Assembly (NCBI GenBank): GCA_001769835.1
Contig: MEPR01000037.1
Location: 1-61,898, forward strand
Reading direction: 5' to 3'
From: Bdellovibrionales bacterium GWB1_55_8
GTDB lineage: Bacteria > Bdellovibrionota > UBA1018
Length of the DNA stretch: 61,898 nucleotides
The first letter of the stretch is position 1. Every line of letters begins with the position of its first letter. This document shows positions 264 through 10,615 of this stretch, one piece after another. The position numbers were made by a program, and so were the translations under genes. The notes below the pieces were generated by a model. It saw only the letters and a program-made list of their open reading frames with translations, had not been told where the DNA came from and made no database searches.

Positions 264-1640
264 CTATTTCGGTCCTCTTCCGGTCCTCTCCCGATGTTCC
301 GGAAGCAGGCTCGGCATATCCGGCGCGACGCCGGTACGCTTTCTCTCCTTCATGTGGATATGGTAGGCGGGGCCGTAGTCGCCCTGAGTGGCGCCTTCAT
401 GAACATGAACGTAGCCCACGAATCCGGCGGAGATGGTCAGCTGCGCGAGCCAGAGTGCCCCCAGGGCCGCACGCCATTTGTTACGCAGGCTTTCCGGGCC
501 GGAAAGGGCCATTCGCGAGAGCCAGACGTATTCCAGCGGAAAGGTGATGCACATGTAATAGCGGCGGATATTCACGCCCGTCAGCGTTAAAAGGACACCG
601 AATCCCCAGAGAGATGAGTTCTGCACGAAAGCGGTCTGCGACCCTCTTCCAACTGAAGTGTCAATCAACTCCGGCAGTCCTCCATGAACTTTTTTGAGCC
701 CCCTTCCGATTCCTTTGGCCAAGACGGAAATCGAAACAAGCAGCGCGAGCAGGTGAGCGGCTCCGATCAGGAATGTAGGCTGGCCTGCGATGATCGGGTA
801 GCGAATAAAGTCACTGATCTGCGCGATTTGGGATTGGCCCCGCAGGAGCCCCAGCGGGTTTCCGAGCGTGAGGCCGGTAGGATCCGTGATCCAGAAGACC
901 CAGAATTTGAGTTGAAGCATCTGGGAAAGTGATGCGGACGCCTGACCCTGCAGGGGGGCGCTGAGAATGTGAAGGAACCAGGGAATGAGCGGCAGTGCGC
1001 CCAAGACGGAGCCAAAAAACCACCCTTTCCAGTGCACCTGACGGCGGCCGAAGAACAAGGTCCAGAGCACCAGTGCCAGAGCGAAGAAGAAACCCGCCAT
1101 GTGGATCTGGCCCAGCCAGGCTCCGATGAGACCCCAGAAAAAAGCTCCCCAAGCCGTGTGCCGTCGCCACCAGCCCATGAGCGTGGCCATGGTGAAAGCA
1201 GGCAGGAAAGGCTGAGGCCAGAGTTTTCTTTGATACAGGATGAGAAACGGATTTACGCAGGCAAAAACGAATGCCCAGAGCCAGGGCTCTCGTTCCTCGC
1301 GATCGCGTATGAAGCGGAACGCAAAAGGAATAATCAGTCCCACTCCGAGCATCGCAAACAGCCGAACAGCCGTGGCGAGCCCTGTGGGAGTCGTGATCCC
1401 GAAAATCTTCGCAAGTGCGATGAATACCCAGACGCTCATACCTGGATTGCGCCAGTAAACGCCAGAGGGCATCCCAACCCAAGGCCAGCTGGTCATGTCG
1501 CCCGCAAGCTGGGTTTGGATGAAATTGTATTCCTCGTCTTCCTTGTACTCCATGTCCTCGGGGTAAAGCAGTCGGAGGGTCAGTCCGCAGAAGAATGAGA
1601 ACAGGAGAAGCCATTTCCAATGCCGGGCAAAAGTCTTCAT
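264..1640 (-). CDS. GT39/ArnT-like polytopic membrane glycosyltransferase
   Basis: A protein of 458 residues with about ten hydrophobic segments and the layout of GT-C glycosyltransferases. These use polyprenyl-phosphate sugars as donors and work on the outer face of the inner membrane. After the first membrane segment comes an acidic loop, EDEEYNF (D35, E36, E37), in the place where PMT/ArnT-family enzymes carry catalytic acidic residues. The ATG overlaps the stop of the upstream triple-fusion gene (ATGA) and has a strong AAGGAGGT ribosome site just before it, so the start is secure. It is the last gene of the metH operon. The acceptor is not readable from sequence. Because the two genes before it also look like dolichyl/polyprenyl-phosphate sugar enzymes, a shared glycolipid or protein-glycan pathway is my inference. 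Confidence 0.75.
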   Translation of the reverse strand: MKTFARHWKWLLLFSFFCGLTLRLLYPEDMEYKEDEEYNFIQTQLAGDMTSWPWVGMPSGVYWRNPGMSVWVFIALAKIFGITTPTGLATAVRLFAMLGVGLIIPFAFRFIRDREEREPWLWAFVFACVNPFLILYQRKLWPQPFLPAFTMATLMGWWRRHTAWGAFFWGLIGAWLGQIHMAGFFFALALVLWTLFFGRRQVHWKGWFFGSVLGALPLIPWFLHILSAPLQGQASASLSQMLQLKFWVFWITDPTGLTLGNPLGLLRGQSQIAQISDFIRYPIIAGQPTFLIGAAHLLALLVSISVLAKGIGRGLKKVHGGLPELIDTSVGRGSQTAFVQNSSLWGFGVLLTLTGVNIRRYYMCITFPLEYVWLSRMALSGPESLRNKWRAALGALWLAQLTISAGFVGYVHVHEGATQGDYGPAYHIHMKERKRTGVAPDMPSLLPEHRERTGRGPK

Positions 1641-4459
1641 GAGCGACCTCCTTGCTGCGTTCCCGTCGAAAACTTCGCAAGCTGGCGAAAAGTCAGAAAC
1701 TCCGTCACCCGTCCCGTCACGTAATCATCGGGGTTTTCAAAGAGGTCTCCGTCGACCCAGGAAGCCGGATGAGTGATGACTTCAGTTCCGGGTATCGCGC
1801 GGGCAAGTTTCCTCGCGAGCCCGGGAGGGTCCTGGAAATCACCAGAGAGAGGGTAAAGGAAAGGGGAGAATTCCAGGCCCAAAGAACGGAAGCTGCCTCT
1901 GGAGAGCCAGGAAAGAATCAACAGAGGAAATTTGGAGGAGGCACAGAGCTTCCAGTCATGAGGTAAACGAGTGCCTTCAATTCCGACTTGTTTCATGTCA
2001 TCTGCGATGCAATTCAGCAAACCGGGGATGACATGAACGTGATGATGTCCGTCCAGATAAACGGGCCGGACACCGGCGGCGGCAAGCTTTTCGAGCTGCG
2101 CTCGAAATTCAGCACGTATATATTCCTGAAGCCGGCGTTTTCTTCCGGGAAGAAACCAGTTCAGAAGAAGCACGAACGGGGTGGGATATCGCTTTCCATA
2201 AGTCAGATTGAAATGTATGCCGAGCCCGACGTTTGGGAGTTCGAGAAGATCCTTCAGCTGAAATGAGAGATAACGTGCATCGGCCATCAGAGAAACCCGG
2301 CTGATGACTCCGCGCTTCGCCAGTTCAAGAATTCCGGCGTTCACCGCCGGCGACATTCCCCAATCGTCCGCGCTGACCGCGAGGTCAGCGAAGTTGACAG
2401 CGGAGCCCCGATAGAGTCCGAGCCCTTTTCTCCTCATGAGCGCGGGCATACCGAAGCTAATGGACAAGGTTTCGTGGATCATTCGGTTGATCGGTTTTTC
2501 CTGAGACAGGTGAATGGTCACCGGCAGTTCCGTTTCCTTGAGCTCCTCTGCCCGGGTCACAAGACAAACCTCGAGGTCAAACAGAAATCCGTTGGTGCTC
2601 TGCTGCGAGAAAATCGCGATCGCCGCGCGCCTTGTGAGTGCCAGAGTTCCGGAGTGAGTGTCGGTCGTTTTGATTCCAAGCAGAGCTCTTACCAGGCGAT
2701 TAAAGGTGAGCCCCAGGCGATGTCTTCCGTAAACGAGTGAAAGAACGCGTACGGGTATCCGGAACCGCGATTCAGGGTGCCGCCGGTTCGCCCGCACGAT
2801 ATCCAGTTCAGGTTGCGAGGCCAGGCGATCGAGCGCGAGGCGGAAGAACTCAGGAGCACAGGGCTGGTCAAAATGGGCGAAGAGAAGCGTCCTGCCGGAG
2901 GAATGCAGAAAGCCCTGGCGCAAGGCCGCGCCTCTGCCCCAGGCCTGAGGCGTCGGCAGAATGACCGCACTCGGGGGGACGGTATTCGCTTTGAATTGAA
3001 TTTGCCCTGTCATCCGCGCATCAGCAGCGGTCTCAGAATAGGGGACGATCAGAATCTCAAGATCGTTTATCTCGGTCAGTGAATTTCGGACATCCTGCGC
3101 GATCCTCGATGCGTACGAGAGACTCGTAGCAGGGTCAGAGAGCGCACGAAGGGGAAGAGGGAGAATGAAAGAGACCGATCGGGCAGGTGCTTCCGGTTCC
3201 TTCAGCCAGGGACCAGCCGAGGGTGCGCCGAGGATCCCCCGCGTATTCAGAACCCAAGGGGCGGGACGACTTTCATTGAACGCCTGACGAATCACCGCAA
3301 TGAATAGGATGATGGTGCTGAATAATGGAACGGATGCTTTCTGCAGTCCGAAAAAAAGTGTGTCAGGCATCAGGTCTTTGCCTGCCAGTGAAAGCGTCAG
3401 GAAGCCGAATCCGATCGCGAAGGTTGTGAGCTTTGACCTCGGGGAAAGAAAAAGCAAAGCCACCGGAATGCCAAGAGCTGTCAGGGAATACTTGAAGGTT
3501 TCCGGCATGAACCAGAGATAGGCAAAAAGGCCCGTCGAAAAGAAAAGGCCGCGTCCCAGGGCGGTGACAGGTGTCCTCATGGCCCATAAGAGCAGTAGCG
3601 CGAAAACGCCGGAAACAGAGGTCACCAGCCAGACCGCGTTCGCCGCAGCACCGTCCATCCATCCGGCTCCTGCGAGACGAAGCAGCAGGCTTTTCAGCGA
3701 CTGGCTTCCGTAATGGGAAGCATCAAAATAGGCGGAATCAGAACGAACGATGTGGATCCATCCCTTCCAAAGGTCTGAAACGGCCGATGTATCGGCAGCA
3801 AAGGCGATCCAGGCTGCGCTCATGGCAAACAATCCGAGGGCCAGCAGGACGGCAACAATCCAGGCGCGAATGGCCCTTTTCCAGCCATCGAGCGGCAGCA
3901 GCAGGTACTGGATGCCTGGGCCGATTTTCAGAAGCGTCGGAATCGAAAGCCAGGCGGCCGAGCGAGGAGTGTCGCCAGCCATGAACGCGTGAAGGCCTGC
4001 GGCAAAGCCCAGGAACATCAGGCTCGAGATCTGACCGATCGTAAAACTATCGAGGCAGAACCGAAGAATGAAGAGACTTGAGGCCGCAGTGATCCAGTTA
4101 CTGGTGGATCGCGGAGCTCCGGCTGCTTCAAGAGCCCGTCGGATGAAAAGAAAACCTGCCAGAAACCAGCTGTACTGAAAAAGATACCAGACAACGCCCG
4201 CCGTCTGAAACGAGAGCAGCCCGAACGGCAGAAAAAAAGGCAGGGCCAGCGGAGTGTAACGAAAGGGAGACGCCCCGTCCTGAAGTGAATAGATCGCGTC
4301 CCATTCGCCTGCGAGTGCGCGCGTGGCCGCACGATGATAAACCAAAAAATCGGTATAGCCGGTTTTACCGAATACCTTGTATGCGTAAAGCGGCAGAACG
4401 ATGGCCGCGAGAACCAGCGCCAGCCGGATGAAAGCCTTCTGGATACCCGTCCTGTTCAT
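1637..4459 (-). CDS. Triple fusion: GT87-like membrane mannosyltransferase + GT2-like domain + YdjC/ChbG-like deacetylase
   Basis: The start is the ATG at 4459, which overlaps the upstream stop as ATGA behind GGAGGA; an ATG eight codons upstream lacks this. The product has 940 residues. Residues 1-395 are polytopic and carry FRYTPLALPFF (66-76), as in GT87/DUF2029 polyprenyl-phosphate-mannose transferases. Residues 425-690 resemble the GT2 domain of the neighbouring gene (shared YGRHRLGL and IKTTDT), but the DAD metal motif has become AHFD (528-531), so this copy may not transfer sugar. Residues 690-930 match the YdjC/ChbG carbohydrate deacetylase family, with SADDWG (697-701), GIHFNLT (H749), DGHHHVHV (803-810) and ITHPA (H897) as probable metal and catalytic residues. 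The combination suggests one enzyme that adds and then deacetylates an N-acetylated sugar on a lipid carrier; that is inference. Confidence 0.8.
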   Translation of the reverse strand: MNRTGIQKAFIRLALVLAAIVLPLYAYKVFGKTGYTDFLVYHRAATRALAGEWDAIYSLQDGASPFRYTPLALPFFLPFGLLSFQTAGVVWYLFQYSWFLAGFLFIRRALEAAGAPRSTSNWITAASSLFILRFCLDSFTIGQISSLMFLGFAAGLHAFMAGDTPRSAAWLSIPTLLKIGPGIQYLLLPLDGWKRAIRAWIVAVLLALGLFAMSAAWIAFAADTSAVSDLWKGWIHIVRSDSAYFDASHYGSQSLKSLLLRLAGAGWMDGAAANAVWLVTSVSGVFALLLLWAMRTPVTALGRGLFFSTGLFAYLWFMPETFKYSLTALGIPVALLFLSPRSKLTTFAIGFGFLTLSLAGKDLMPDTLFFGLQKASVPLFSTIILFIAVIRQAFNESRPAPWVLNTRGILGAPSAGPWLKEPEAPARSVSFILPLPLRALSDPATSLSYASRIAQDVRNSLTEINDLEILIVPYSETAADARMTGQIQFKANTVPPSAVILPTPQAWGRGAALRQGFLHSSGRTLLFAHFDQPCAPEFFRLALDRLASQPELDIVRANRRHPESRFRIPVRVLSLVYGRHRLGLTFNRLVRALLGIKTTDTHSGTLALTRRAAIAIFSQQSTNGFLFDLEVCLVTRAEELKETELPVTIHLSQEKPINRMIHETLSISFGMPALMRRKGLGLYRGSAVNFADLAVSADDWGMSPAVNAGILELAKRGVISRVSLMADARYLSFQLKDLLELPNVGLGIHFNLTYGKRYPTPFVLLLNWFLPGRKRRLQEYIRAEFRAQLEKLAAAGVRPVYLDGHHHVHVIPGLLNCIADDMKQVGIEGTRLPHDWKLCASSKFPLLILSWLSRGSFRSLGLEFSPFLYPLSGDFQDPPGLARKLARAIPGTEVITHPASWVDGDLFENPDDYVTGRVTEFLTFRQLAKFSTGTQQGGRS

Positions 4460-5952
4460 GGGTTTCCTCCGGCTTTGCGGCAAACGAAAAGGACATCAGA
4501 AAAAAAGCTGCTGCTGCACGGTTCCGAATGGACATCGAAGCCGGCGCTCCTGAAGAGTTCTTCCCATCCGGCACGCGAGCGGAAATGCAATTCAAGTTCA
4601 TTGGCCTGAGTGAAGCCGACCCATGTCGCCAGGCGTTCATAGAGCCTGTTCCAGCGCGCAATAATCGCGGCGAAGCCCTGAGGTGACGGTTCAACCTCAC
4701 GAACCAGAAGGACGCCTTCGTTTTCCAGGTGATCAAAGGCGTCTTTGGCCATTGCGGCCTGCTGAGCGGGTGAAAAATAGTGAAAAACATCGATCATCGA
4801 TATTCCCGTGAACGGGCCCTCCGGCATCGGTGATACGCCACCTACGCGGAACTCGAGATTCAGAAGTCCTGTTGCTGCCGCTTTGGCCTGTGCAATTCGA
4901 CTGGAGTCATGGTCGATCGCGAGAATTCCGCGTTGGGAGGAGCCGAGCGCGCTCCAGATCGAAAGAAGACCATGCCCGCAGCCGAGGTCGAGGATCCGGC
5001 CTTTCCGCGGCAGCCAACTGGCCATCGTGCGGTAGGGGGTGAGCTTCCAGCGAACCCAGAGAAAAAAGCGGGTGCCTAGGTCTGCCCCGGTAAAACGCTC
5101 CACGATCCATTCCCGCTTTTTGTCGCCACGGTAGGCCCCCGCGTGGTGCCGCAATACGATTCGACTGAGCCAGTAGCCCGCGAGCACGGATTGCCTCATC
5201 ACGCGAACGGTGCTTTTCTCGCTTCGGAGAAAGAGTTCCACTGTGAGTTCCTTCTGGCGGAACCCCTGCGCGCTGGCGGTGAGGAAGAACTCGAGATCGA
5301 AGAAAAAGCCCGGACAGATCTGCCTGCGGAACGCCTGATTCGCGAATTCCCGAGTCATGGCTTTGATGCCGGCTTGCGTATCGGTCGTTTTAATCGGCAG
5401 AAGAAAGCGAACGAGGCTGTTGAACCAAAGTCCCAGACGGTGACGGCCGTAGGCTAGTGGAAGTAAAGTGACCGGCACTTCGAACTGGCTGTCGGGCAGA
5501 CGCCGGTTGCCTGTCACAAAATCACAGCCATTGCGGAGATCCACCGCCGCCCGAGTCAAAAAAGAAAGATCGTACGGGAGATCAGCGTCCGTGAAGAATA
5601 TCCAGGCACCTCGTGAGGCCAGAAAACCTGTACGTAAAGCGGCACCTTTTCCGGCGGTGCCCCGATGAGGGCAGACCCGCACATGTGGATGCTTCTTCCG
5701 TATATCCTCGGCGACCTCAATGCTCTGGTCGTTTTCCGATGAGCCTTCTCCAGGATTCGGGATCAGAATCACTTCGTAATCGTCCGGGAACTGCTGATCG
5801 AGATGCCGGCAGGCCTGCCGCACGGTTTCGAGCAGTTCAGAGCCTACGGCACGCGCCGGAATCAGCAAGGTTGCAGCAAGCGCCGGGCCGGCCTCGTCAG
5901 CGTCTCCTCGGTGATCAGCGGGCTTGAGCCCTCGCATCTCACGAATAATCAT
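4456..5952 (-). CDS. Fusion: GT2 (dolichyl-phosphate glucosyltransferase-like) + SAM-dependent methyltransferase
   Basis: A protein of 498 residues. Residues 25-275 are a GT2 glycosyltransferase of the Alg5/DPM1 type: GKGAALRTGF (101-110), then TDADLPY (121-127), which holds an intact DxD metal and nucleotide-sugar motif, then YGRHRLGL (168-175) and IKTTDT (187-192). Residues 300-495 are a class I methyltransferase with motif I LDLGCGHG (321-328) and an acidic IDHD at the end of strand 2. The ATG overlaps the preceding stop (ATGA) behind GGAGG. The GT2 half is a paralogue of the middle domain of the next gene, but this copy keeps its catalytic residues. It probably makes a polyprenyl-phosphate-linked sugar; what the methyltransferase half modifies cannot be read. 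Confidence 0.8.
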   Translation of the reverse strand: MIIREMRGLKPADHRGDADEAGPALAATLLIPARAVGSELLETVRQACRHLDQQFPDDYEVILIPNPGEGSSENDQSIEVAEDIRKKHPHVRVCPHRGTAGKGAALRTGFLASRGAWIFFTDADLPYDLSFLTRAAVDLRNGCDFVTGNRRLPDSQFEVPVTLLPLAYGRHRLGLWFNSLVRFLLPIKTTDTQAGIKAMTREFANQAFRRQICPGFFFDLEFFLTASAQGFRQKELTVELFLRSEKSTVRVMRQSVLAGYWLSRIVLRHHAGAYRGDKKREWIVERFTGADLGTRFFLWVRWKLTPYRTMASWLPRKGRILDLGCGHGLLSIWSALGSSQRGILAIDHDSSRIAQAKAAATGLLNLEFRVGGVSPMPEGPFTGISMIDVFHYFSPAQQAAMAKDAFDHLENEGVLLVREVEPSPQGFAAIIARWNRLYERLATWVGFTQANELELHFRSRAGWEELFRSAGFDVHSEPCSSSFFSDVLFVCRKAGGNP

Positions 5953-7013
5953 CGGCCGCCTCCGATTCGATCATGGACTTCATCGAGGAGGGCCAGCGCA
6001 GCTTCGGCATCTTCAGGCGTGTGGAGAGCCAATCCGCAGGCCGGGGTGAGGAGAGACGTCTCCAGGAGATTCCGAATGCGCTCCGGTTCGTCATGCCAGG
6101 CTTCGTCGAGGCGCTCGCGGAGTTCACGGACCAGATCCTCGGAGCGCAGGGATCGGAGCTGCGAAGTTTGCCCGGTAGGGATCACCCCGAGCGCCAAACG
6201 GCCGCCAGCCGCGAGGAATTTTTCGGCGGACTTCTTGTTTTCTCCTGCCAGGAGGCCTGCCAGGCTCAGGCTCGTGTCGATGGACAGGATGTCGATACCG
6301 AGGCCCAAAACGGCACCCCAGTCGGTGTTGCTGCAGACATGAAGCCCCACCCGGTTGCCTTCTTTTTTCAGAGCCTGGATAAGGAGTTTCAGCTCGCTGA
6401 GTGCAACGACGTGCCTGGGATTCGACAGCGAGAGAGAATACAGGCCGGGCTCATCCAGGAACAAGATGGGCCGCACCCCTGTCTGAGCAAGACGTCGACA
6501 CATCCCGAGTGATCGAGCGAGGATCAGCCGGAAAATCTGTGTATCCAGTCCCGGCAGATCTCCCAGGTCGCATCCCTCCTTGGATCGCAAGGCCCAGCGT
6601 GCGGTCAGAGGACCGGCGATTTGGATTTTGGCTTCCTTCGGGGTTGCGATCTTGCTCTCAGCGAGTTCCCAGACGAACGCCTGCCAGCTGCTGGAAACCG
6701 ATGTGCCTGGTTCAAAGCTTGAAAAGGCAAATGCATCAGAAGGACTCTTGATGAAAGCTTTCTGCAATCTGCGCTCAAGGTCTTGCGCGCGGCTGGCCCA
6801 GATGTCAGGCGCGATCAAACAGGTGCCATCGGATTGGGCCTGGAGCCCGGGAATTCCTTCGAGCGCCTGGGCGAGCATGAATTCCCACGGATTACGGATG
6901 GGAATCTGCGGAAGGAAGGGAATTCCCATGCGAAAGCTGTGGTCGAGCGCCGCGTCCACATTGTGATGAGGAAGGCTGCCGATTCCGGTCGTTCTTCTAG
7001 CGTTGGTCTTCAT
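5949..7013 (-). CDS. Core-MetE/UROD-superfamily zinc methyltransferase
   Basis: A 354-residue TIM-barrel protein of the uroporphyrinogen decarboxylase/MetE superfamily. It begins with TGIGSLPHHNVDAAL and carries the zinc pattern of MetE-type enzymes: LHVCSN (H225, C227), SIDTS (D246, where MetE has Glu) and TPACGL (C326). The ATG at 7013 is preceded by AAGGGGGG and lies inside the end of metH (17-base overlap); an ATG 19 codons further up has no such site. It lacks the N-terminal half of full MetE, so it resembles the short core-MetE proteins that use methylcorrinoid or another methyl donor. Coupling to metH supports a role in homocysteine methylation or corrinoid methyl transfer. A heme pathway HemE is unlikely given the H-x-C...C zinc set. 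Confidence 0.75.
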   Translation of the reverse strand: MKTNARRTTGIGSLPHHNVDAALDHSFRMGIPFLPQIPIRNPWEFMLAQALEGIPGLQAQSDGTCLIAPDIWASRAQDLERRLQKAFIKSPSDAFAFSSFEPGTSVSSSWQAFVWELAESKIATPKEAKIQIAGPLTARWALRSKEGCDLGDLPGLDTQIFRLILARSLGMCRRLAQTGVRPILFLDEPGLYSLSLSNPRHVVALSELKLLIQALKKEGNRVGLHVCSNTDWGAVLGLGIDILSIDTSLSLAGLLAGENKKSAEKFLAAGGRLALGVIPTGQTSQLRSLRSEDLVRELRERLDEAWHDEPERIRNLLETSLLTPACGLALHTPEDAEAALALLDEVHDRIGGGR

Positions 7014-10000
7014 CAGACCCCCCTTGGGTTCCAACGGAAAAATAAACGGCGGCCGGATGATGAAATGCAATACCTGAAACGCTCGATTCCGGATCCATCA
7101 TCATGCCCTCGGTCAGCTGAACGCCGATCTCTTCGGCCCTGAGCGCTTGAAAGAGGATCTGCTGATCATCGAGGCGTGGGCAGGCAGGATAGCCGAAGGA
7201 GTAGCGCTTCCCCCGGTAGCGAGCCTGAAACCGCTCAATTGAGGAGAGTTCGACAGGATCCGGATATCCCCACATGGCGCGCAGCCGCGCGTGAAGCAAC
7301 TCGGCATAACCTTCCGCTAATTCGATGGCGAGAGCCTGCAACACATGAGACCGAAGGTATTCGCCTCGATTTTTCAAGGCCTCCGCGAGTTCTCTGACTC
7401 CGCGCCCCACGGTGACGACAAAGAGCGCGACTGAGTCGGCACTGCCACCCTTGGGCGATACGTAATCCGCGAGGCACAGTCCGTTGTTTCCTGGCTGACG
7501 AGGGAAGCTGAAATTCGCGCAGGTCTTTTCATTTTCATCGAGAAGTTCAATGGAATTGCCTTGGGAAAATGCGCGGAAGAACTGATAGACCGCGGCAGGT
7601 TGAAGGACTTCGGTGTTTCGGAATTCATTCTTGATCACCTCAACCGTGTCCGCCACTTCGAGTGAGCCGGGATCATTGATTTCGAGTTCGTGGCGAATCT
7701 TTGGATCTGAAATGTGAGGAAGGAGTCGCGCGACCGAACCTTTGACTCCGAGATGTCTGCCATAAAGCATCAGAGGATTGATGAATCCCCAGATCTGCTC
7801 AAGAGGCGTGTTTCGAATCAAGTGCCGTTCAAAATCCGGAGGTGAAGGAAGTTCGGGGAGTATCGCGACCGCAGAGGAGCGAATTTGCGATACGGAGGGA
7901 GGAGGGGCGGCTACAGGTCTGCTTTCAGCCAGTTTGGCGCGTCCTTCAGCGAGTTCGCTTCGAAATTTTGCGAATTTTTCCGAATTCACGACGGTTTTCG
8001 CGAGTTCCAGACCGTTCATCGCGTCCGAGGCGTAGGTCACCGTACCGCCTTCGTAGACTTTGGCGATATGACGATCAACATACGATCGTGTGAGCGCCGC
8101 TCCTCCCAGGAGAAGCGGTAACTTGATTCCGGCTTTCGCGAAATCCTCGGCGGTCGCGAGCATCTGGTGCGCGGACTTCACCAGGAGTCCCGAAAGACCG
8201 ATCATGTCCGGCTGGTGCTTGCGAGCCGCTTCAATGAGCTGCTCGGGCGGAACCTTGATGCCGAGGTTGATTACGTCAAATCCGTTGTTCGTCAGAATGA
8301 TTTCGACGAGATTCTTGCCGATGTCATGGACATCGCCCTTCACCGTGGCCAGAAGGACTTTTCCGCGGGATGCGCTCGCGGATTTTTCCATGTAGGGCTC
8401 GAGGTGATTTACCGCGGCTTTCATCACTTCCGCCGACTGAAGCACTTCCGCGACAATCAGCTGGTTCTTATTGAAAAGACGCCCCACTTCGTCCATTCCG
8501 GACATCAGCGGTCCGTTGATGATCTCGAGCGGCTTCATCGATCGAAGAGCCTGATCGAGGTCGGCCTGTAATCCGTCTTTTGCGCCTTCGATGACGTATC
8601 GGGAAAGGCGTTCAAGTAACGGCAGCTGAGCCCTTTGGCTCAAGGGCTCAGGAGTTTTCTTGTTCCGAAAATGCGCTGCGAACGCGGCAACCCGGTCACC
8701 TCCGCCGCGCACGAACAGAAGATTTTCCGAGAGCTGTCGTTCCTTCTCGGGAATGCCCGCATACCGTTCCAGTTTTTCCGAATTGACGATGGCCAGATCC
8801 AGACCGGCTTGCACGCAGTGGTAGAGGAAAACCGAATTCAGTACCTCGCGCCCCGCTTGGGGGAGTCCGAAGCTGACGTTCGAAATGCCGAGGACCGTTC
8901 TGCATCGCGGGAAGGCGGACTTGATGGCGCGAAGGCCTTCGATAGTTTCCACTGCCGAGCCCGTGTATTGAGCGTCTCCTGACGCACAAGGGAAGACCAG
9001 CGGGTCGAAATAGAGGTCTTCGGACGCAAAACCGTATTTCTTCGTAAGGAGGTCATGCGTTCTTTGCGCAATCTCGAGTTTCCGCTGGCGGGTGAGGGCC
9101 ATGCCTTGTTTTGCATCCTCATCGATGGTCCCAACGACCAAGGCGGCGCCGAACCGACGAGCGAGGGGAGCGATCTGGGCAATGCGCTCTTCGCCGTTTT
9201 CCAGATTCACGGAGTTGATGATGGATTTACCCTGGCAGTAGGTCAGAGCGCTGGCGATCACGCCCACATCCGTTGAATCGATCATGATCGGGGCGCGTAC
9301 CTTGCGAACCAGCTGACCCATGAAGCTTCGCATATCCTTAAGCTCGTCACGATCCGGATTGGCTACGCACACGTCAATGATTTGAGCACCGTTACGAACC
9401 TGCACCCGGGCGATCTCGGCCGCTTCCTCGTACTTTTCAGCGGTGATCATCTCCTTGAATTTGCGGCTTCCGATCACGTTCGTTCGTTCACCTACGATAA
9501 TAGGGCGCGTCTCATCCGTGATTTCAAGATAATCGATTCCCGAGAGGCTCGAGCGGCTTGCTGCGGAAAACGTGCGTGGGGTCTGGCCTTTCGCGAGCAT
9601 TGAGAGAGCGCTGATATGTTCGGCGTTCGTGCCGCAGCAGCCTCCCACCAGATTCACCCAGCCGTTATTGATAAACCGCTTCACAATCGCGGACACCATT
9701 TTTGGGGATTCAAGGTAGTTTCCGTTTTCATCAGGCAAGCCCGCATTCGGAACGCATGCGATAGGAAAAGGGCTGAGCGCGGCAAGTGTTCGGAGGTGAT
9801 CGGTCATGAACTCAGGACCAGTCGCGCAGTTCAGGCCGACATAAAGAAGATCAATATGTGACAGGGAGGTGAGGAAAGCGTCCACTGTCTGGCCGGCAAG
9901 CATGGCACCCGTTGCTTCAATGGTCCCCGAGACTGCAATCGGAATCCTTCGAGAGCCTTCGTCAAAGAGGCGTTGGATCCCAAGAAGCGCCGCTTTCACA

Positions 10001-10506
10001 TTCCGGGTGTCCTGACAGGTTTCGAGCAGGAAGTAATCGACGCCGCCCTCCAGAAGAGCCTTTGCGTGATCGTGAAACTGTCTTTCGAGTTCCTCGAATT
10101 CAATTCCACCCGTGACGGAAATGGCTTTCGTCGTAGGTCCGATCGAGCCCGCCACAAAACGGGGCTTTTCGGGCGTGGAGAACTCGTCGGCTGCTTTTCG
10201 GGCCAGCTTCGCGGCAATGCGGTTGATCTCAAAAGCGCGGCTACCCAATCCGTACTCTTCGAGCACCAGGGCAGCGCCGCCAAAGGTGTTGGTTTCAATG
10301 ATATCGCAACCGGCCTCAAGATAGCCTCGGTGAATGGACTCGATCACGTCCGGACGCGTAATCACGAGATATTCATTGCAGCCCTCGAACTCGGGCCCAC
10401 CGAAATCTTTGGCCTTCAGATCACGGGCCTGAATGGCAGTGCCCATCGCCCCATCGAGGACCAGAATGCGTTCTCTGAGGGCGTGAATCAGCAGGTCTGA
10501 GCGCAT
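6997..10506 (-). CDS. metH: Cobalamin-dependent methionine synthase
   Basis: Transfers a methyl group from 5-methyltetrahydrofolate through cobalamin to homocysteine, giving methionine. All four modules are present in 1169 residues (E. coli MetH has 1227): the homocysteine domain with zinc ligands C227 and C290/C291 (GGCCGT), the pterin domain starting at GERTNV (339-344), the B12 domain with DVHDIG (725-730; H727 is the lower cobalt ligand), and the C-terminal activation domain with RGKRYSFGYPACP. I take the ATG at 10506, which has AAAGG upstream, rather than the GTG at 10524, which has no ribosome site. It leads a five-gene overlapping operon. Only 109 bases separate it from the divergent gene, too little for a cobalamin riboswitch. 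A cob(I)alamin adenosyltransferase gene lies about 1 kb away. Confidence 0.97.
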   Translation of the reverse strand: MRSDLLIHALRERILVLDGAMGTAIQARDLKAKDFGGPEFEGCNEYLVITRPDVIESIHRGYLEAGCDIIETNTFGGAALVLEEYGLGSRAFEINRIAAKLARKAADEFSTPEKPRFVAGSIGPTTKAISVTGGIEFEELERQFHDHAKALLEGGVDYFLLETCQDTRNVKAALLGIQRLFDEGSRRIPIAVSGTIEATGAMLAGQTVDAFLTSLSHIDLLYVGLNCATGPEFMTDHLRTLAALSPFPIACVPNAGLPDENGNYLESPKMVSAIVKRFINNGWVNLVGGCCGTNAEHISALSMLAKGQTPRTFSAASRSSLSGIDYLEITDETRPIIVGERTNVIGSRKFKEMITAEKYEEAAEIARVQVRNGAQIIDVCVANPDRDELKDMRSFMGQLVRKVRAPIMIDSTDVGVIASALTYCQGKSIINSVNLENGEERIAQIAPLARRFGAALVVGTIDEDAKQGMALTRQRKLEIAQRTHDLLTKKYGFASEDLYFDPLVFPCASGDAQYTGSAVETIEGLRAIKSAFPRCRTVLGISNVSFGLPQAGREVLNSVFLYHCVQAGLDLAIVNSEKLERYAGIPEKERQLSENLLFVRGGGDRVAAFAAHFRNKKTPEPLSQRAQLPLLERLSRYVIEGAKDGLQADLDQALRSMKPLEIINGPLMSGMDEVGRLFNKNQLIVAEVLQSAEVMKAAVNHLEPYMEKSASASRGKVLLATVKGDVHDIGKNLVEIILTNNGFDVINLGIKVPPEQLIEAARKHQPDMIGLSGLLVKSAHQMLATAEDFAKAGIKLPLLLGGAALTRSYVDRHIAKVYEGGTVTYASDAMNGLELAKTVVNSEKFAKFRSELAEGRAKLAESRPVAAPPPSVSQIRSSAVAILPELPSPPDFERHLIRNTPLEQIWGFINPLMLYGRHLGVKGSVARLLPHISDPKIRHELEINDPGSLEVADTVEVIKNEFRNTEVLQPAAVYQFFRAFSQGNSIELLDENEKTCANFSFPRQPGNNGLCLADYVSPKGGSADSVALFVVTVGRGVRELAEALKNRGEYLRSHVLQALAIELAEGYAELLHARLRAMWGYPDPVELSSIERFQARYRGKRYSFGYPACPRLDDQQILFQALRAEEIGVQLTEGMMMDPESSVSGIAFHHPAAVYFSVGTQGGSDEDQR

Positions 10507-10615
10507 CAAAGAGGAGCCTTTCACAGGGAATAATGGTGAACGTGAATGAGGTCACAAGAAAGCACAAAATCGCTGATGTTATCAACTCTTATTGTCTTTA
10601 TAAGGGGCATGTGAC

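Follow-up and report, generated by a model that had tools for sequence, protein, structure and literature searches.

A family-wide loss of the DxD motif from the GT2 domain of a GT87-GT2-YdjC fusion protein in Bdellovibrionota, and a candidate lipid-linked amino-sugar pathway

A degenerate GT2 glycosyltransferase domain, GT2-B, is retained under purifying selection between a GT87 membrane domain and a YdjC-type deacetylase domain in a fusion protein of one Bdellovibrionota family. Its paralogue with an intact DxD motif, GT2-A, is fused to a methyltransferase (MT) domain in the protein encoded directly upstream. The loss of DxD from GT2-B is family-wide and not a matter of chance, an observation stronger than the first-pass annotation of the window could know; the interpretation given there is partly supported, as a conserved degenerate GT2 domain with a putative role. 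With moderate confidence, we propose that the gene string encodes a membrane pathway that decorates an envelope acceptor with a modified amino sugar via a polyprenyl-phosphate carrier, in which GT2-B is a non-catalytic holder or docking part.

Gene string and domain composition

The window is the whole stretch of 61,898 nucleotides analyzed, from an uncultured Bdellovibrionota bacterium related to predatory bacteria, and all genes studied lie on its (-) strand (Table 1). The two adjacent fusions read in the first-pass annotation, GT2-MT and GT87-GT2-YdjC (the triple protein), are both present as open frames, and their domains were identified by Pfam, profile searches and model comparison. For the triple gene, ATG 4459 (940 aa) is a likelier start than TTG 4483; it is preceded by GGAGGA and overlaps the GT2-MT stop codon as ATGA. 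With this start, the last three junctions of the string are four-base ATGA overlaps, which makes translational coupling of the genes probable. Promoter and terminator scans returned sites no more numerous than in shuffled sequence.

Table 1. Features of the gene string in the window
Feature	Position	Strand	Basis and remarks
MetH, first gene of string	6997..10524	(-)	Putative product, assigned by sequence
373-aa protein directly upstream of GT2-MT	5949..7070	(-)	Open frame; no Pfam, NCBIfam or PDB match
GT2-MT fusion protein	4456..5952	(-)	498 aa; open frame, Pfam, ATGA overlaps with both neighbours
GT2-A domain	5113..5874	(-)	Pfam PF00535 and profile matches; DPMS/GtrB/ArnC-like, polyprenyl-phosphate sugar transferase type
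DAD (DxD) of GT2-A, residues 122-124	5581..5589	(-)	Alignment
SAM-dependent methyltransferase (MT) domain	4459..5097	(-)	Pfam and alignment; conserved DLGCGHGL
GT87-GT2-YdjC triple fusion	1637..4483	(-)	948 aa from TTG; ATG 4459 likely start
GT87 (GT-C) membrane domain	3263..4435	(-)	Pfam GT87, PimE match of model, alignment
GT2-B, degenerate GT2 domain	2414..3184	(-)	Paralogy, model match, profile-profile; DPMS fold retained
HFD, residues 537-539, in place of GT2-A DAD	2867..2875	(-)	Alignment
YdjC (ChbG/HpnK/NaxD-type) deacetylase domain	1661..2389	(-)	Pfam, alignment, model match
Polytopic membrane protein, last gene	264..1640	(-)	Putatively GT-C/GT39-like, by motif only (KEDEEY near N-terminal helix)

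The first gene of the string presumably encodes the cobalamin-dependent methionine synthase MetH, and the 373-aa product that follows is taken to be a MetE/UroD-type methyltransferase. The same pair directly upstream of GT2-MT was seen in the window and in loci L039, L042, L087, L088, L089 and L090. One explanation for this placement could be that the pair supplies methionine/SAM for methylation by GT2-MT.

In GT2-MT, Pfam detected GT2 (6.5e-14) and Methyltransf_23 (6.1e-12), and the GT2-A profile matched the Pyrococcus dolichyl-phosphate-mannose-synthase-type enzyme PfDPMS (5e-11), GtrB (9e-10) and ArnC (6e-9). No transmembrane helix was predicted in GT2-MT. The same held for the GT2-MT, GT2-YdjC and GT2-MT-YdjC forms, save for one segment barely above threshold in 1 of 9 proteins tested.

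In the triple protein, the gathering scores were exceeded by the GT87 part (PF09594; 4.9e-16, 59.6 bits vs a cut-off of 25) and the YdjC part (PF04794; 5e-34, 118.8 vs 29.7 bits), and GT2-B fell below that of Pfam GT2 (17.8 vs 23.3 bits). The NCBIfam models nearest to the YdjC part were chitin disaccharide deacetylase (ChbG; 71.0 bits vs 227) and HpnK (55.5 vs 232.6), both far under cut-off. The motifs DDWG, GxHx[ND] and DGH[HQ]HxH, which hold the metal ligands in ChbG, are intact; DDWG, the GxHx[ND] histidine and the outer His of the third motif are shared by all 17 sequences aligned. The catalytic Asp of GT-C enzymes sits in the first outer loop, and the GT87 domain carries TDF (D45) there, the Asp of this [ST]DF motif again being invariant (17/17). 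PimE, a GT87 enzyme, likewise has an Asp in its first outer loop (PMC12041525).

AF2 models were built from shallow alignments of 5 and 4 rows, made up of the window and its related loci. The 5-row model covers the triple protein (pLDDT 74, pTM 0.49), and its interdomain arrangement is not reliable; in it, residues 11-403 matched PimE (Z 24.7, 350 residues), residues 436-690 matched PfDPMS (Z 21.1, 219 residues, rmsd 2.8) as well as GtrB and ArnC (Z about 17-19), and residues 699-942 matched EF3048 (Z 17.5) and ChbG (Z 17.4). From hydropathy and the positive-inside rule (19 vs 8 basic residues), the GT2-B and YdjC parts are predicted to be cytoplasmic.

The label GT39-like, given to the last gene in the first-pass annotation, could not be confirmed. 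Pfam, NCBIfam and PDB contained nothing matching its protein, the PDB profile search being empty up to E 10, and its AF2 model (pLDDT 39.6) was too low in confidence to use. Of the 35 family genomes, 22 encode the protein, in which a KEDE motif near the N-terminal helix is invariant; it possibly represents an unlisted GT-C family.

Loss of DxD and conservation of GT2-B

That the two GT2 parts are duplicates was borne out by their identity of 36% over 244 residues (E 2e-38) and by the comparison of their family profiles (probability 100, E 4e-65, profile against profile); both profiles match ArnC structures. The motifs YGRHRLGL and IKTTDT are common to the two domains, and TDADLPY of GT2-A is replaced by AHFDQPC in GT2-B. 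To compare the DxD position, 31 GT2 domains were aligned, 19 from outside the triple clade and 12 of the triple type. Both Asp residues are kept in all 19 relatives, which include GT2-MT, GT2-YdjC, GT2-MT-YdjC, YdjC-adjacent and solo forms, and in this motif GT2-A agrees with the DPMS/ArnC/GtrB-type GT2 enzymes. The complete motif is present in 0 of 12 triple-type copies, where the first position is H in four, N in four, P in two and D in two, and the second E in eight, H in two, D in one and V in one, never both Asp. The earlier claim that the second copy had lost its DxD thus holds for the clade as a whole, but the window copy has lost the first Asp only and keeps the second (HFD), where most orthologues have E.

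The replacement is itself conserved. The triple-type copies share [HN]xEQP: 11 of 12 have Q as the next residue, and there is an acid (E/D) at the second DxD position in 9 of 12, and S in place of A194 in 11 of 12. Lys197, invariant in all DxD-bearing relatives, is absent from every copy, as is Trp261 (both 0/12), and Gln193 is kept in 1/12. Retained residues include Arg150 and Asp191 (11/12 each), Arg170 and Arg182 (10/12 each), Glu221 and Lys246 (12/12 each); by position in the triple protein, residues kept in 12/12 are E638, K663, Y691 and P654. The whole domain is retained in nearly all copies; the entire YGRHRLG segment is missing in L017, the domain is degenerate throughout in L023, and strong degeneration is also seen in L025. 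Arg150 aligns with Arg117 of PfDPMS, which binds the lipid phosphate, the DxD being the site of metal and sugar contacts (PMC5526996). The remaining kept Arg/Lys residues of GT2-B would belong to the acceptor side.

Conservation across eight genomes was uneven. The donor half of GT2-B (N-terminal) is the least conserved and fastest diverging of all domains, with a mean identity of 32%, against 45% for its acceptor half, 49% for GT87, 50% for YdjC, 56% for MT, and 59% and 67% for the GT2-A halves. In the close pair G026/G031, with small counts of 9 non-synonymous changes per GT2-B half, dN/dS values of 0.18 and 0.09 were obtained for the GT2-B halves and about 0.05 for GT2-A. GT2-B is thus under purifying selection. 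In the tree, the triple-type GT2 domains form one clade (96/90; 100% of bootstrap trees) and GT2-A one group of weaker support (74/79). The order among GT2-A, GT2-YdjC and GT2-B is poorly supported; GT2-B may have originated from a GT2-MT duplication inside the family alone.

Two simple readings were set aside. Descent from an ordinary active GT2 family that never bore DxD, the objection raised in the first-pass annotation, was rejected, as the nearest relatives all have the motif and the triple type is a single clade. Plain decay is made unlikely by the low dN/dS together with the conserved new motif. The notion of a possible pseudo-enzyme stands as regards the family-wide loss of DxD, but not in the sense of a merely decaying domain. 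In DPMS, some activity survives the D89A and D91A mutations (PMC5526996), so the loss of DxD by itself is no proof of inactivity; we infer that GT2-B is inactive, its probable role being non-catalytic, in docking or in binding lipid.

Distribution and linkage of the domains

The survey covered 35 genomes of one Bdellovibrionota family, in which the named public records are Bdellovibrionales/Oligoflexia MAGs. A YdjC domain is found in 15 of them, and all 15 belong to this system. The GT87-GT2-YdjC architecture occurs in 13 genomes, in one frame in 11 and cut by contig ends in 2; the other two YdjC genomes have a split copy (G018) and a GT2-YdjC form (G001). As the fusion is a single open frame in 11 independent assemblies, an assembly artefact was rejected as its source. 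In 12 of 12 loci where the contig reaches, the triple gene is immediately preceded by GT2-MT, which in G002 and G021 consists of two overlapping ORFs. The G018 triple gene (L087:2551-5537) is divided within the GT2 part into two overlapping frames, by a frameshift or a real split. Literature searches on YdjC fused to glycosyltransferases, on inactive GT domains of this kind and on a Bdellovibrio lipid A pathway returned nothing on point.

Other arrangements of the same domains were found. Active-looking GT2-YdjC fusions are present in G001 (same family), G078 and G286. The G001 protein, with DxD and the single GT2 of its genome, adjoins GT87, as does GT2-YdjC of G286 and a GT2 of G087. Even in G001 the MT family is present, as a stand-alone orthologue on a contig other than that of GT2-YdjC. 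In G362, from another family of the phylum, the MT orthologue is part of a GT2-MT-YdjC protein of 734 aa, encoded immediately after PseB and PseC (L076:2792-7215), both of which are above the NCBIfam cut-off; to our knowledge, a row of PseB, PseC and a single GT2-MT-YdjC protein has not been described. This suggests that the G362 sugar is a 4-amino-4,6-dideoxy-HexNAc. In the window's genome no PseB scores above cut-off, so this sugar cannot be carried over. The recurrent linkage across lineages is our chief ground for placing GT2, MT, YdjC and GT87 in a single pathway. It also bears on the idea that each GT2 copy was fused to a different tailoring domain after the duplication: the duplication and the two fusions stand, but the account is too simple, since the GT2-YdjC and GT2-MT-YdjC proteins indicate tailoring fusions at least partly independent of it.

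GT87 and GT39-like genes were also seen in tandem in G020 and G030 (L083:11022-13669, L084:14100-16575) without any YdjC or GT2-MT; those proteins can therefore use another donor.

Proposed pathway and probable role of GT2-B

In the proposed pathway, the substrates of which we infer, GT2-A, a soluble DPMS/ArnC-type enzyme with intact DxD, would use a nucleotide sugar to load undecaprenyl phosphate with an N-acetylhexosamine at the cytoplasmic face. N-deacetylation of the lipid-linked sugar would then fall to the YdjC domain of the triple protein, and the MT domain would methylate the sugar, either at O or at the N exposed by deacetylation. Once flipped, the sugar would be transferred by the GT87 domain in the periplasm, perhaps with a further transfer by the polytopic GT39-like protein. 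If GT2-A loads, YdjC deacetylates, MT methylates and GT87 transfers, no catalytic step is left for GT2-B. It most likely would hold the lipid-linked sugar beside YdjC and GT87, pair with soluble GT2-MT so as to bring it to the membrane, or both. DPM2/DPM3 tether the soluble DPM1, and GtrB and ArnC are oligomeric; a holding or docking role is suggested by analogy with these systems. A more specific version is offered tentatively and is, in our judgement, rather doubtful: a catalytically dead GT domain would serve family-wide as membrane tether and substrate-holding partner of its soluble active paralogue GT2-MT, passing the sugar on its polyprenyl-phosphate carrier to the deacetylase and GT-C domains fused to it, so that two proteins with five domains form an assembly line that makes a methylated amino sugar. 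The pseudoglycosyltransferases ValL and VldE are active C-N couplers and differ from the GT2-B case.

The first-pass annotation had proposed a new lipid-linked glycan pathway. A lipid-linked sugar with deacetylation and methylation remains our working scheme, but its logic is not new and resembles the NaxD and Arn pathways. FlmF2 and FlmK act with NaxD in the Francisella lipid A galactosamine pathway. NaxD, of the YdjC superfamily, deacetylates Und-P-GalNAc, after which galactosamine is transferred to lipid A (PMC11279074). The FlmF2-NaxD-FlmK system (Francisella; naxD also in Acinetobacter) is like the proposed pathway in having Und-P-HexNAc, deacetylation of the carrier-bound sugar by a YdjC-superfamily enzyme and then a GT-C transferase. 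However, its enzymes are separate proteins, without a methyltransferase or a degenerate GT2, whereas in the present string a GT87 of PimE fold and YdjC are parts of one protein, separated by a GT2 that lacks DxD. By analogy, and from its linkage to GT2 and GT87, the YdjC part may act as a NaxD-type Und-P-HexNAc deacetylase. In the ArnC-ArnD-ArnT system (Und-P-L-Ara4N), GT2 loading is followed by deacylation on the carrier and GT-C transfer; the likeness lies in this step logic and in the match of both GT2 profiles to ArnC structures, but ArnD is of the polysaccharide-deacetylase (NodB) type, not YdjC, and the Arn enzymes are separate proteins, with no methyltransferase known among them. GT2-B resembles DPMS/GtrB in fold, and GT2-A in sequence profile and DxD; in contrast, PNP stands in GT2-A at the place of the DD(G/D)S of DPMS/ArnC, GT2-A is without TM helices, and GT2-B is without DxD. 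The GT87 domain shares with PimE its fold over 350 residues and the Asp in the first outer loop, although PimE is a stand-alone mannosyltransferase. The YdjC domain has the fold and metal-ligand motifs of ChbG/HpnK but is outside the NCBIfam cut-offs and part of a membrane fusion.

GT2-B may instead be active with changed chemistry, [HN]xEQ replacing DxD in metal or diphosphate binding, and make a second lipid-linked sugar so that each GT-C protein has its own donor. The non-random replacement, with its acid in nine copies, Q in 11 and S for A194 in 11, and the residual activity of the PfDPMS DxD mutants (PMC5526996) argue for such an enzyme, as do the retained DPMS fold (Z 21) and the presence of two candidate GT-C partners. 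We nevertheless consider it unlikely: K197 and Trp261 are lost in 12/12 copies and Gln193 in 11/12, the donor-side half diverges fastest, L017 and L023 are degenerate to the extent noted above, and in the single-GT2 genome G001 the YdjC-fused copy has DxD.

The poor conservation of the N-terminal half and the strong degeneration in L017, L023 and L025 would also fit an evolutionary leftover, whose role was lost after GT87 fused with an older GT2-YdjC protein and which is now a mere linker between the membrane domain and YdjC. This is improbable in view of the dN/dS of 0.09-0.18 in the close pair, the four residues E638, K663, Y691 and P654 kept in 12/12, and the fact that nearly every copy still has the whole domain; with a conserved motif of its own and low dN/dS, GT2-B is not merely decaying. 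YdjC enzymes also act on chitooligosaccharides (ChbG) and in hopanoid synthesis (HpnK), and these are the NCBIfam models nearest to the YdjC part. A hopanoid- or chitooligosaccharide-type product in place of an Und-P-linked glycan is, however, very improbable, as both scores are far under cut-off (71 and 55 bits vs 227 and 233), the fused partners are a polyprenyl-phosphate-type GT2 and a GT87, and the solved relative PimE uses a polyprenyl-phosphate sugar.

The phylum presents a natural experiment in pathway fusion, in which loading, methylation, deacetylation and transfer are encoded in several forms: separate genes, GT2-YdjC, GT2-MT-YdjC, and GT2-MT with GT87-GT2-YdjC, the last with a retained DxD-less GT2. 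It offers a clear, testable case of a GT domain possibly kept as a scaffold, and it suggests that Bdellovibrionota have an uncharacterised envelope sugar, which may be methylated and carry a positive charge.
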